From Mesorhizobium sp. M1D.F.Ca.ET.043.01.1.1 (GTDB taxonomy: Bacteria; Pseudomonadota; Alphaproteobacteria; Rhizobiales; Rhizobiaceae), in NCBI RefSeq assembly GCF_003952385.1, contig NZ_CP034444.1, positions 6,089,001 through 6,153,000 on the forward strand: DNA of 64,000 nt, given 5' to 3'. Each line of letters opens with the position of its first letter. Position 1 is the first letter of the stretch. The notes under the pieces are model-generated. The model was not told where the DNA came from, did no database searches, and was given only the letters and a program-made list of their open reading frames with translations. The position numbers were made by a program, and so were the translations under genes. This document shows, piece after piece, positions 21,449 through 26,538 of this stretch.

Positions 21449-22774
21449 ATGCGTTTGTCGCGCTACTTCCTGCCCATTCTCAAAGAAAACCCCCGCGAGG
21501 CGGAAATCGTCTCGCATCGGCTGATGCTGCGCGCCGGCATGATCCGCCAGCAGGGGCAGGGCAGCTTCTCCTGGCTGCCGCTCGGCAAGCGGGTGCTGGA
21601 CAAGGTCTGCCAGATCATCCGCGAGGAGCAGAACCGGGCAGGCGCGCTGGAAATCCTGATGCCGACCATCCAGTCGGCGGACCTGTGGCGCGAGAGCGGC
21701 CGCTACAACGACTACGGCAAGGAGATGCTGCGCATCAAGGACCGGCAGGACCGCGACATGCTCTACGGTCCTACCAACGAGGAAATGGTCACCGAGATCT
21801 TCCGCGCCTACGTCAAGTCCTACAAGGACCTGCCGCTCAATCTCTACCACATCCAGTGGAAGTTCCGCGACGAGGTGCGTCCCCGCTTCGGCGTCATGCG
21901 CAGCCGGGAATTCCTGATGAAGGACGCTTACTCCTTCGATCTCGATTTCGAAGGCGCCAGAGCCGCCTACAACCGCATGTTCGTCTCCTATCTCAGGACG
22001 TTTACGCGCATGGGCCTGCAGGCCATTCCGATGCGCGCCGACACCGGCCCCATCGGCGGCGACCTCAGCCACGAGTTCATCATCCTGGCCGACACCGGCG
22101 AGAGCCAGGTGTTCTGCGACCGCGCCTATCTGTCGCTGGACGTGCCCGGCGCGGACACGAACTTTTCAAACGATACCGAGATCGGCGGCATCGTGAAGAA
22201 ATGGACGACGCCTTACGCCGCCACCGACGAGATGCATGACGAAACGGCCTGGGAGAAGGTCTCCGAAGGCGACAGGCTTTCGGCGCGCGGCATCGAGGTC
22301 GGCCACATCTTCCACTTCGGCGAGAAGTATTCGAAGCCGATGAATGCCAAGGTCACCGGGCCCGATGGCAAGGACCATTACGCTTCGGGCGGCTCGTACG
22401 GCATCGGCCCGTCGCGGCTTGTCGCGGCGATCGTCGAGGCGAGCCACGACGAGAACGGCATCATCTGGCCGGAAACGGTGGCGCCGTTCGACATCGGCCT
22501 GATCAATATGAAGGCAGGCGATGGCGAATGCGACCGCGTCTGCGACGAGGTCTACGCGGCGCTGACTTCGGCCGGCAAGGACGTGCTTTATGACGACACC
22601 GACCAGCGGCCGGGCGGCAAGTTCGCGACCGCCGACCTGATCGGCCTGCCCTGGCAGGTGATCGTCGGCCCGCGCGGCGTAGCCGCCGGCGAGGTCGAGA
22701 TCAAGAACCGCCGCAGCGGCGAGCGCGAGACGCTGCCGATCGCCGAAGCCAAGAAACGCTTGGGAATCGCCTGA
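21449..22774 (+). CDS. proS: Prolyl-tRNA synthetase, short alphaproteobacterial type
   Basis: 441 aa, against about 570 aa for E. coli ProRS: the editing (INS) domain between motifs 2 and 3 is absent, as usual in alphaproteobacteria. Class II motifs are seen: [43 protein letters not shown] (motif 2), and [10 protein letters not shown] (motif 3). The anticodon-binding domain has [20 protein letters not shown]. The start is ATG 21449 ([10 protein letters not shown]); an upstream in-frame ATG would add unconserved residues. The leader from about 21200 to 21448 shows no recognisable structure. lolC/E starts within its stop codon. Confidence 0.96.
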
Positions 22775-24056
22775 TGAACGAGGCGGCTGCAGCTCGATCG
22801 CCGGCAGGCGCCTTTTCAGGCTTCGAGCGCATGGTGGCGTGGCGCTATCTGCGTTCGCGCCGCAAGGAGACGGTGATCTCCGTCATCGCCTCGATCTCCT
22901 TCCTCGGCATCATGCTGGGCGTCGCGACGCTGATCGTCGTGATGGCGGTGATGAACGGTTTTCGTGCCGAACTGCTCACCCGCATCCTCGGCGTCAACGG
23001 CCATCTGATCGTGCAGCCGCTGGATTCGCCGCTGGAGGACTACGCGCAGGTGGCGAGCCGCATCAACGGCGTTTCCGGCGTCAAATACGCCATCCCGCTG
23101 ATCGACGGGCAGGTGCTGGCGCAAGGCAATGTCGGCGGCGGCACCGGAGCGCTGGTGCGCGGCATTCGCGCGGAAGACCTCAACAAGATCTCGATCGTGT
23201 CCGGCAACATCAAGCAGGGCACGCTAGACGGCTTCGACACCGGCGAGGGCGTGGCGATCGGCAAGCGCATGGCCGAGAATCTCGGCCTTGTGCTCGGCGA
23301 CACCATCACGATGATTTCGCCTGAAGGCGACGTCACGCCGCTCGGCACCACGCCGCGCATGAAAGGCTACAAGGTGGCGGCGATCTTCGAGGTCGGCATG
23401 TCGGAGTATGACAGCTCGATCGTCTACATGCCCTTCTCCGAGGCGCAGCTCTATTTCAACATGGACGGGCGGGCGCAGACCATCGAGATCTATGTCGACA
23501 ATCCCGACAATGTCGATGCGCTGAAGCCGCCGGTCGAGCAGGCGGCGCAACGGCCGATCGACCTCGTCGACTGGCGCCAGCGCAACGAGACCTTCTTTTC
23601 GGCGCTGCAGGTCGAGCGCAACGTGATGTTCATGATCCTGACGCTGATCGTGCTGGTGGCGGCACTCAACATCATTTCGGGCCTTGTCATGCTGGTGAAG
23701 GACAAGGGCCACGACATCGCCATCCTGCGCACAATGGGCGCCTCGCGCGGGGCAATCCTGCGCATCTTCCTGATGACCGGGGCCGCGATCGGCGTGACGG
23801 GCACGATCGCCGGCGTGCTGCTCGGCGTCGTCATCTGCCTCAACATCGAATCGATCCGCCAGTTCTTCTCCTGGATGACGGGCAGGATATTGTTCAATCC
23901 CGAGCTCTATTTCCTCAGCCAGCTGCCGGCGAAAATGGACCCGCGCGAGACCACCTATGTCGTCATCATGGCGCTCAGCCTGTCCTTCCTCGCCACGGTA
24001 TTTCCGGCATGGCGGGCGGCACGGCTCGATCCGGTCGAAGCCTTGAGGTACGAGTG

Positions 24057-24057
<1 letters not shown>
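22774..24057 (+). CDS. lolC: Lipoprotein-releasing ABC transporter permease (LolC/LolE family)
   Basis: 427 aa. Inner-membrane subunit of the Lol complex that extracts lipoproteins for delivery to LolA. Topology fits the family: one N-terminal helix (about 28-55), a large periplasmic domain, then three C-terminal helices (about 283-305, 325-355, 385-410). Family motifs are [20 protein letters not shown] and [20 protein letters not shown]. Alphaproteobacteria often have one LolC/E-type permease that may act as a homodimer; assignment to C or E is not possible here. It is coupled to proS and lolD by one-base stop/start overlaps. Confidence 0.93.
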
Positions 24058-24737
<680 letters not shown>

Positions 24738-24877
24738 GGCAGGCCGATATTCGGATGAGGCCGGCCTGGGAATGGCAGCTTCCTGCGCTTCCGGTACTCA
24801 CCTACTATAAGTACGCTCCGTTCCGGTTCTCGGAATCCGCCATTCTCGACTCGGCCTGATCCGAATCTCGACCTGCC
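24738..24877. repeat. Interspersed palindromic element, copy 1
   Basis: It begins right after the lolD stop with GGCAGG...ATTCGGATGAGGCCG and ends with CGGCCTGATCCGAATCTCG...CTGCC. Inside are TTCCTGCGCTTCCGG and CCGGTTCTCGGAA. The same inner phrases and order occur at 26538-26715. There is no ORF. It is probably a non-coding genomic repeat that can form a long hairpin and may help end lolD transcription. Confidence 0.75.
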
Positions 24878-24989
24878 TTCGGCCCGGTTCTGCGACGACC
24901 CCAAAAAGAGCCCAACCTTCTCGTCAATCTTTCCTTAACCTTACCCAAACGGATCGCTCGAATTCGCTCGGCGTGCCGCTTAGCGATCG

Positions 24990-25024
24990 TTGACATTCGA
25001 ACAAAATTAGAACAAATTACGAAC
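24990..25024 (+). promoter_or_regulatory. Promoter with double LexA (SOS) box
   Basis: TTGACA (24990-24995) is a perfect -35. Downstream GAAC occurs three times (24999-25002, 25010-25013, 25021-25024), each separated by exactly 7 bases. That is two overlapping copies of the alphaproteobacterial SOS box GTTC-N7-GTTC, read on the opposite strand. The boxes cover the expected -10 region (about 25013-25019, AT-rich but not consensus), so bound LexA would block RNA polymerase. The next start codon is 25047. Confidence 0.75.
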
Positions 25025-25046
25025 ATATGAAAAACAGGAGAGAGTT

Positions 25047-25133
25047 ATGGCCGATCTGGTTCAGGATGTCGTCTCGCTGGTTTGCATGAGCACCTTTCTC
25101 ATTTCCATGGCGATCTGGATTGGCGCCATGTGA
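25047..25133 (+). CDS. 28-aa SOS-controlled membrane micro-protein (SidA-like in size and control)
   Basis: 28 codons, too short for ordinary gene calling. It has a strong ribosome site, AGGAGAGAG, with its AGGAG about 8 bases before the ATG. The product starts MADLVQD and is hydrophobic from residue 8 to 28 (VVSLVCMSTFLISMAIWIGA), enough for one inner-membrane helix with an acidic N-terminus. The promoter carries the triple GAAC LexA site. Caulobacter SidA is a 29-aa, SOS-induced inner-membrane protein that blocks cell division through FtsW/FtsN; the likeness here is in size, topology and control, and I claim no sequence homology. Function is inference. Confidence 0.72.
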   Translation: MADLVQDVVSLVCMSTFLISMAIWIGAM

Positions 25134-25140
25134 TCAGGCG

Positions 25141-25219
25141 GTCCGCCGCGGACGGACAAGAGCCCGCCCGTTGTTCGGGCGGGCAAAAAAAGGCCCGCCC
25201 GGGGATGGGCAAGAGCCCA
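25141..25219. repeat. Cluster of GC-rich alternative hairpins after the micro-ORF
   Basis: GTCCGCCGCGGAC (25141-25153) is a short palindrome. Then GCCCGCCCG (25162-25170), CGGGCGGGC (25176-25184) and again GCCCGCCCG (25193-25201) allow two mutually exclusive 9-base stems, with seven A residues (25185-25191) between the second and third segments. TGGGC-AAGA-GCCCA follows (25206-25219). The stems would be very stable in the RNA but lack a downstream U-run on either strand, so they are not a canonical intrinsic terminator. They may protect or end the short SOS transcript. Confidence 0.6.
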
Positions 25220-25287
25220 CCTCTTGTTAAGTCTTTCTTGGCCGCACGGCCGCTAGGCTGCTCCTTAAAGACGGGGAGCCAAAGGCA

Positions 25288-26538
25288 GTGTCGGTCATCG
25301 TCACGGTCACTCTCGTGGCCGGAAATCTCGGACTGATCTTTTTGCTGATGACCGTGCCGCTCGGGCGGCGCACGGTGACCGTCAGTCGTGTGATAGAGGC
25401 CGATCGGAAACGCCTCTGGCAGGCGCTTTGGCCGTTCGGCGCAGATGCCGGCTGGTCGGGTGAGATCCTCTCCGCCGAACCCTTGGACGGCGAGGGGACG
25501 GCGCTGATCAAACTGTCCTGGGAAGGGCGGGATGGCCGGCCGATCGAACGCAAGGCGCGCTTCGACGATGTGGCGGAAGGCAGCCGCTTCTCGATGCGCG
25601 TCATCGAGGATACGGCGCTCGATCCCTCGTTCTGGGCCGACTATCGCGAAACGACCGAACTGGTGCTCGAAGGCGGTGCGACGCGGGTCACGCTGACGCA
25701 GACCGACCGTTATCGCGGCGTCGCCTTCCTGATCTTCCGTTACTTCGCCATGCGCCGCGAACTCGCCAAGCTCAAGGTCTGGGCGAGAACCGGCAAGTAT
25801 CGCAAGGGCGGCTGGTTCGAGCATCCGGTTAGCCAGATCGGCTTCGCCGTGCTTTCGGCCTTCATCCTGTGGCCGTTCTTCGGTCTCAATCCCGGCGGGC
25901 TGGCGCTGGCCGCGATCCTGACCTCGGTGGTGGCGCTGCACGAGCTTGGCCATATGGCGGCGTTCCGCCTGACGGGGCATCGGCGGGCGCGCATGATCTT
26001 CATCCCGCTGCTCGGCGGCATCGCCATAGGCGGCAGGCCCTATGACAGCCGCTTCGAGGTCGCCTTCGTGGCGCTGATGGGGGCCGGCTTCTCCGCCTTC
26101 CTGGTGCCTCTGCTGATCGCCGCCAGCGGCGTTGCCGGCAGCGAAGGGCACCGCTTGGCGGCGTTGCTGCTGGCAACACTTGCCGGCTGTGCGTCGCTGT
26201 TCAACATCGCCAATCTGGTGCCGGTGTGGAAGTTCGACGGCGGCCAGGTGCTGCGCCAGATCTGCCCGGGCCCGGTCGTTCTCGCGCTGGCGTCCTTCCT
26301 GCTGCTGACTGCCCTCTTGGCGCTCGGTTGGCGTGCCGGCTTCTCGCCCAGCTTCCTGCTTGTCGCCGGCGCGGTGTTCTCGATCCTCAGCCTGATCACC
26401 GTCGGAAGCGGCGTGAAGCCGCGCCACGAGCTGAAGCCGATCCATGCCTTCGACCGCCTGGCCATGGCCGGCGCGCTGCTCGCGGTCTTTGCCATCCACG
26501 GCTATGGCGTGCTCTGGGCCTCCGCACAGCTGATGTAG
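25288..26538 (+). CDS. SRPBCC-domain / M50 site-2-protease-like fusion
   Basis: 416 aa. A short N-terminal hydrophobic segment (1-22) precedes a soluble domain (about 28-145, VSRVIEADRKRLWQALWPFG start) that reads like a polyketide-cyclase/START fold. From about 185 there are several membrane helices with the zinc metalloprotease motif HELGH at 218-222 and the third-ligand motif NLVPVWKFDGG (D317), as in S2P proteases. Start GTG 25288 has GGGGAG and AAAGG upstream. Intramembrane proteolysis is inferred from the intact motifs; no substrate is suggested by neighbours. It ends in the arm of a long palindrome. Confidence 0.78.
   Translation: MSVIVTVTLVAGNLGLIFLLMTVPLGRRTVTVSRVIEADRKRLWQALWPFGADAGWSGEILSAEPLDGEGTALIKLSWEGRDGRPIERKARFDDVAEGSRFSMRVIEDTALDPSFWADYRETTELVLEGGATRVTLTQTDRYRGVAFLIFRYFAMRRELAKLKVWARTGKYRKGGWFEHPVSQIGFAVLSAFILWPFFGLNPGGLALAAILTSVVALHELGHMAAFRLTGHRRARMIFIPLLGGIAIGGRPYDSRFEVAFVALMGAGFSAFLVPLLIAASGVAGSEGHRLAALLLATLAGCASLFNIANLVPVWKFDGGQVLRQICPGPVVLALASFLLLTALLALGWRAGFSPSFLLVAGAVFSILSLITVGSGVKPRHELKPIHAFDRLAMAGALLAVFAIHGYGVLWASAQLM

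Follow-up and report, generated by a model that had tools for sequence, protein, structure and literature searches.

A 28-residue predicted membrane peptide behind SOS-type boxes in Mesorhizobium, a probable ortholog of the Caulobacter division inhibitor SidA

Halting cell division is one of the central outputs of the SOS response, and outside the range of SulA each lineage seemed to own an unrelated inhibitor. SulA of Escherichia coli has the SOS checkpoint role in common with the gene described here, but it targets FtsZ and is described as not widely conserved beyond gammaproteobacteria in the account of PMC4211646, which gives yneA, divS, chiZ, and sidA as unrelated division inhibitors. In the same account, SidA of Caulobacter is a 29-aa inner-membrane protein that interacts with FtsW, with suppressors in ftsW and ftsI (PMC4211646), and the filamentation of a Caulobacter delta-lexA strain depends on sidA (PMC12700426). 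The transmembrane segment of YneA binds transmembrane helix 7 of FtsW, and models placing SidA on FtsW are, in their authors' own words on them, not of high confidence (PMC13396833).

Several of these systems resemble the present locus when compared by description. DidA, also of Caulobacter, is induced by damage and inhibits division from the inner membrane by acting on FtsW/I/N; it differs in being SOS-independent and induced through DriD (PMC4211646). YneA of Bacillus, SosA of Staphylococcus, and ChiZ of Mycobacterium are likewise damage-induced small membrane division inhibitors, although YneA carries a LysM domain. TisB and DinQ of E. coli are SOS-controlled single-transmembrane micro-peptides, but they are membrane-acting toxins under antisense RNA control, and no such RNA was found at the window locus. 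The closest system is SidA of Caulobacter crescentus (CCNA_02004), which shares the LexA-type direct-repeat box, a single helix in 28–29 aa, the lolC-lolD...dnaE neighbourhood, and an alignable profile. Known suppressor mutations in Caulobacter are ftsW A246T and ftsI I45V. The rhizobial peptide differs from it in having 28 rather than 29 aa, an acidic rather than basic N terminus, and Trp at residue 24 rather than 19.

The window, that is, the whole stretch of DNA analysed, covers 64 kb of a 7.13-Mb Mesorhizobium genome. Its features around the micro-ORF are as follows.

22774-24057, + strand: lolC-type permease gene, upstream neighbour, belonging to the conserved lolC-lolD-sidA block (ORF; homologs beside the micro-ORF in other loci by tblastn)
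24057-24737, + strand: lolD-type ATPase gene, immediate upstream neighbour (ORF; start set at the internal ATG at 24057)
24990-24995, + strand: -35 element TTGACA (sequence)
24999-25013, + strand: first SOS box, GAACAAAATTAGAAC (sequence; conserved in genus and family)
25010-25024, + strand: second SOS box, GAACAAATTACGAAC, overlapping the first (sequence; full triple in 22/30 genus loci)
25036-25044, + strand: Shine-Dalgarno sequence, AGGAGAGAG (sequence)
25047-25133, + strand: 28-codon membrane micro-protein gene, proposed sidA ortholog (ORF, conservation, profile comparison)
25162-25184, + strand: GC-rich hairpin of 9 bp after the ORF, followed by no U-run
25288-26538, + strand: M50-family membrane protease gene, downstream (PF02163, E 4.8e-9)

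Direct reading of positions 24990-25133 gave TTGACA, three GAAC half-sites, a ribosome site, and the 28-codon ORF, as an earlier note on this DNA had described. The hexamer that the note had called a -35 element is present, and its three GAAC half-sites (24999-25002, 25010-25013, and 25021-25024) proved correct base for base, lying at 11-base steps with two exact 7-base gaps and thus forming two overlapping boxes. The strong ribosome site it had claimed lies where the list places it. The ORF runs from the ATG at 25047 to the stop codon at 25131-25133 and encodes the 28-aa product MADLVQDVVSLVCMSTFLISMAIWIGAM. Its one hydrophobic helix, also claimed in the note, was confirmed, with a best 19-residue Kyte-Doolittle mean of 2.12 compared with 2.08 for the Caulobacter ORF; in size and hydropathy the product thus matches the single-transmembrane inner-membrane peptide of about 29 aa that SidA is, its membrane location being predicted. 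The note's placement of the gene on its own, with lolD on one side and an M50 protease gene on the other, holds for the window. The direct repeat GAACN7GAAC / GTTCN7GTTC is the alphaproteobacterial LexA box, and its Caulobacter form has been tabulated (PMC9578287). A LexA-type direct-repeat box therefore covers the promoter region in the window as it does in sidA, and LexA would be expected to bind there.

A scan with the sigma-70 consensus found no good -10 element, and a full promoter was therefore not detected. The hairpin at 25162-25184 was rejected as a terminator, its A-run being on the wrong strand; it is non-canonical for the + strand because no U-run follows, and no canonical + strand terminator was found directly after the ORF. 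No Rfam family exceeded its gathering score between 24740 and 25330. Two weak minus-strand matches, at 21.2 of 41 and 19.9 of 49.5 bits, were discarded as far below their gathering scores; the former was to the suhB/mmgR RNA family at 25147-25217, a stretch with GC-rich hairpins downstream of the ORF and ahead of the M50 gene.

We next asked how far the boxes exceed chance. The 64-kb window holds two GAACN7GAAC pairs, both being the overlapping ones described here; shuffled windows had a mean of 1.48 pairs, and 45 of 100 shuffles reached 2, so the bare pair is not significant against shuffles. Genome-wide the pattern was not enriched either (162 pairs compared with 195 for the reversed pattern), and counting of bare boxes was dropped as evidence. 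The triple with up to two mismatches was not enriched in the window (6 compared with a shuffle mean of 3.86). The exact GAAC triple occurs once in the window, with ∼0.005 expected per window by our own arithmetic at an assumed 62% GC. Since bare-pair counts are not enriched, the argument rests on conservation. The genome's own lexA gene has GAACACAACTGGAAC upstream, and its recA gene has the one-mismatch box GAACAAAAAAGGTAC (GAACN7GTAC) 73 bases upstream (L372), of the same type as a one-mismatch box found at one family locus (L186).

Conservation within the genus was examined among 61 genomes, 37 of the genus and 24 from other families. The peptide was encoded in all 37 genus genomes at 79–100% identity, and the 24 others gave two weak matches at E of about 1. 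The identical peptide occurred in genomes named Mesorhizobium (among the best 80 of 139 matches). Thirty of the 37 genus loci were read; the GAACN7GAAC pair was kept in all 30 and the full triple in 22. In the 23 of 30 upstream regions that align, TTGAC and the pattern AACAGGAGAG.GTT were each kept at a level of at least 90%. The earlier note had proposed checking the ORF at the codon level. Over 27 distinct ORF sequences pN/pS was 0.104, compared with 1.6 and 5.7 in the other two frames, and differences by codon position numbered 679, 76, and 2136; amino acids rather than codons are conserved. These results indicate that the ORF encodes a protein that is subject to purifying selection and is preceded by a conserved operator. 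Among the 30 loci, a lolD homolog was present in 26, as it also adjoins the micro-ORF in many other loci, and an M50 gene was present in 25, in the place that dnaE occupies in other lineages. Five loci (L006, L022, L023, L029, and L030) had lolD and no M50 gene within 1.5 kb, three had M50 without lolD, and L002 was cut by a contig end.

A search of 247 Rhizobiaceae genomes gave a match at E≤10 in 139, in 71 of 109 genera, the weakest of which resemble random matches within long open frames. We read the 26 best loci and fetched 60 further stretches, of which a regular-expression ORF filter recognised 36, giving 62 loci outside the genus. Before boxes were counted, six box-less copies away from lolD and dnaE and one locus with an undefined start (L199) were set aside. 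The strict GAAC pair was present in 51 of the 55 remaining loci; the four exceptions carried a one-mismatch form (L037, L186, and L207) or a two-mismatch form (L183). Box and ORF are thus kept together in genus and family alike, the joint conservation that the earlier note had also put forward for checking. Either or both of lolD and dnaE lay in the fetched stretch of 42 of the 62 loci. In 13 loci, box and ORF occurred together in a fetched stretch that contained no lolD, dnaE, or M50 gene (L041, cut upstream by a contig end, L042, L045, L047, L053, L054, L056, L164, L168, L175, L194, L198, and L217), and the conserved unit is therefore the box plus the ORF, not the neighbour.

Two observations concern neighbours in these loci. 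In L047, L053, and L217 the ORF is followed by an opposite-strand gene that resembles lipB by eye. The diverged copy MLGFVRDVVSLLAMGGFLTCASLWITLI (L207, genome G160), behind one-mismatch boxes, lies downstream of a gene that resembles ssb by eye.

To the order we applied a protein-only profile of 26 rows (24 from Rhizobiaceae and two from family f50) that held no DNA information. Among 199 genomes, 51 had a match at E≤0.05; for the other 148, absence and insensitivity of the search are not separable in this count. The 26 order loci outside the family comprised two training rows, 21 short-frame loci, and three long-frame loci; matches with long frames and those lacking a box were kept in the tally. 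GAACN7GAAC preceded the ORF on its own strand, at a distance of no more than 150 bases, in 16 of the 21 non-training short-frame loci, compared with 0 of 21 for the reversed motif, and dnaE and/or lolD lay beside all 21, including the five without a strict box (one of these, L242, is cut by the contig start). One long-frame match (L237) had both a box and dnaE, and the other two had neither. Because the profile was blind to box and neighbours, we regard this search as the cleanest result. Five loci of family f35 (L223, L252, L253, L255, and L243) carry an additional opposite-strand box, GTTCN7GTTC, 18 bases further on (46 in L243).

A wider profile was used for the class, where 67 of 385 genomes had a match at E≤0.3; absence and search insensitivity are again not separable in the count of the 318 without one. 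The 27 non-training loci divided into 20 short-frame loci, 11 of them with a box, and seven long-frame loci with none. The 11 boxed loci and one without a strict box (L273) lay beside lolD or dnaE, three of these neighbour counts having come from the same places re-fetched as L320, L322, and L336. The eight of 20 short-frame loci with neither box nor lolD/dnaE are probably chance matches. Because the profile rows were partly picked through their boxes, the class box count is weaker evidence than that of the order. With profile A1 alone the family had seemed to end at Rhizobiaceae; this was rejected when weak matches with boxes revealed the insensitivity of that profile. Family f61 has members of 46–47 aa (L270, L271, and L266), and a protein-database search with one f61 member returned five proteins of 43–47 aa; three carry the name hypothetical protein, and one of the three is from a Parvibaculaceae bacterium.

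Family f115 we take to be the Caulobacteraceae from a PopZ label sequence, to which genome G1021 gave a match of 100% over 177 residues. With a profile that contained three f115 rows, 127 of 149 f115 genomes matched at E≤0.1, the weakest being uncertain. Among 30 Caulobacteraceae loci read, a box was present in 29 and dnaE adjoined all 30. When GAAT was allowed in the first half-site in a set of 20 loci, box plus ORF were found in 16; within this set they were not found in L361, L362, and L367, and L363 gave a spurious match only. The match in G1021 (E 0.033) corresponds to an ORF of 29 aa with SOS boxes ahead of it, and the gene order there is lolC, lolD, a nucleoside hydrolase gene on the opposite strand, the ORF, and dnaE. 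Published locus tags give sidA as CCNA_02004 (PMC11034885), the adjacent CCNA_02005 as an inosine-uridine nucleoside hydrolase (PMC3667746), and CC1926, in the older numbering, as dnaE (PMC1839093). From these tags, the gene order, and the size, the G1021 ORF is therefore almost certainly sidA, an identification made by locus order and size rather than by a printed SidA sequence. Two other records (PMC11031950 and PMC10811719) were discarded as sidA sources, since "sida" in them is the name of the Sidak test.

We then compared the two groups of peptides directly. In a single hhalign comparison, 23 Rhizobiaceae rows aligned with 21 Caulobacteraceae rows at a probability of 73.6% (E 2.9e-5) over 19 gapless columns with 21% identity. 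In a rerun the score was 20.9; the highest value among 300 shuffles of the Caulobacter profile columns was 17.9, and the reversed profile scored 8.4. Taken alone, this suggests a modest sequence link between the rhizobial and Caulobacter peptides; intermediate lineages bridge both by profile. The shared core extends from an acidic residue at position 7 to Phe 17, and its motif [DE]xx[SAG]hx5F fits every one of the 60 distinct peptides from Rhizobiaceae, all but one of the 21 rows from Caulobacteraceae, and all 16 further rows of profile A3 (15 from the order and one from family f61). Among five more distant rows (one from the order and four from outside it), one fits the motif and four fit a looser form. 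Trp is at residue 24 in 56 of the 60 rhizobial peptides compared with residue 19 in Caulobacter, and the mean net charge is -1.9 compared with +0.9; topology or the contact face may therefore differ. Around the gene, the window keeps lolC-lolD as in Caulobacter, and the M50 gene replaces dnaE on the downstream side.

Since profile, synteny, and SOS box agree, the rhizobial peptide is very probably the counterpart of SidA by descent, and orthology to sidA is well supported. The earlier note had proposed a functional counterpart of SidA; neighbourhood, box, and profile support that proposal and extend it to orthology, the function still being one that we infer.

We therefore favour, at a probability of about 0.83, a LexA-repressed SidA ortholog that, once DNA is damaged, would act through FtsW to stop septal wall synthesis. 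LexA would sit on the two overlapping direct-repeat boxes and, as these operators overlap the promoter, would block it. Upon DNA damage, RecA would trigger self-cleavage of LexA, allowing transcription of a short mRNA that carries a strong ribosome site. The 28-residue single-helix peptide would then insert in the inner membrane and bind the divisome once assembled; its contact would by analogy be FtsW and, by way of FtsW, also FtsI/FtsN, so that septal peptidoglycan synthesis would be halted until repair is done. Rhizobiales grow at the pole, and the outcome therefore need not be simple filaments.

The size class, single helix, and LexA-type promoter would also suit an SOS-induced, membrane-depolarising type I toxin of the TisB/DinQ type that slows metabolism and favours persistence with no divisome block; DinQ is a toxic single-transmembrane peptide in the E. 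coli inner membrane. We consider this improbable. Neither Pfam nor NCBIfam gave a match for any of the four peptides tried, the threshold for the window peptide being E≤10, and the antisense RNA that controls TisB and DinQ has no counterpart among Rfam families above gathering score at 24740-25330, where an undescribed RNA could escape. The ribosome site lies close behind the boxes with no long structured leader, and profile and synteny favour sidA.

A second alternative, to which we give a similarly low weight, is that a SidA-derived peptide has drifted in rhizobia to another membrane target, such as the polar growth machinery or the adjacent M50 protease. The differences in charge and Trp position from Caulobacter SidA and the presence of an M50 gene next to the ORF in 25 of 30 genus loci are consistent with such a shift. 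However, the acidic-to-Phe core is common to Rhizobiaceae, other Hyphomicrobiales, and Caulobacteraceae, and the neighbour varies (no M50 in five genus loci, dnaE elsewhere, and none of these neighbours in 13 family loci).

In work presumably by Hadjeras and colleagues, a translated small ORF of Sinorhizobium meliloti, sORF25, was mapped to the 5'-UTR of dnaE1 (PMC10117765), a position that fits the family. That record and the lack of a canonical + strand terminator directly after the ORF would suit a leader peptide or uORF regulating the downstream gene (dnaE elsewhere, M50 here), but this role is very unlikely: box and ORF remain paired in front of different downstream genes (dnaE, M50, others), and it is amino acids rather than codons that are conserved.

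SidA is already known as a kind of protein; what appears new, from comparison of genomes, is the breadth of the family, the lolD-sidA-dnaE synteny, and the box-less copies. Among the matches listed, titles and the beginnings of abstracts in the open-access literature reported no sidA outside Caulobacter, no conserved lolD-sidA-dnaE place, and no box-less copies. These data suggest that a checkpoint known from one model species may be widespread in alphaproteobacteria: putative sidA genes now extend beyond Caulobacter to rhizobia, to more families of Hyphomicrobiales, and to additional alphaproteobacterial families, for the most part at a single chromosomal position, and the stretch beside dnaE is a place to look for them. 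They offer a candidate gene where the effector of DNA-damage arrest is not known, sequence variants from nature with which the FtsW contact could be mapped, and a test case for the action of a septal inhibitor in pole-growing bacteria.

The six box-less relatives in Rhizobiaceae away from lolD and dnaE are L212 (2089-2166, + strand), L189, L193, L171, L201, and L214. Pfam places a CI-type protein (domains HTH_3 and Peptidase_S24) and DUF5131 near L212, and DUF3799 (PDDEXK-like) proteins beside L189 and L193; L171 has only a sub-threshold HTH match nearby. Because of these neighbours, we read the stretches of L212, L189, and L193 as prophage-like, and the box-less copies may possibly be phage division inhibitors. 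Tentatively, and with rather more doubt than confidence, SidA could be the ancestral SOS division checkpoint of much of Alphaproteobacteria, long kept between lolD and dnaE, moved, LexA box included, to new sites in certain rhizobia, and acquired by temperate phages, in which box-less copies next to nuclease or repressor genes would act as phage-controlled division inhibitors resembling Kil of phage lambda. A search of phage records gave no match for one prophage-type copy, and viral contigs searched with profile A6 gave 52 pattern stretches, none of which was confirmed. The profile of the box-less copies matched the rhizobial profile at 98.4%, a circular value since the copies were found with a rhizobial query. 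In PHROGs, the window peptide gave one weak match, phrog_1692, at E 0.037.
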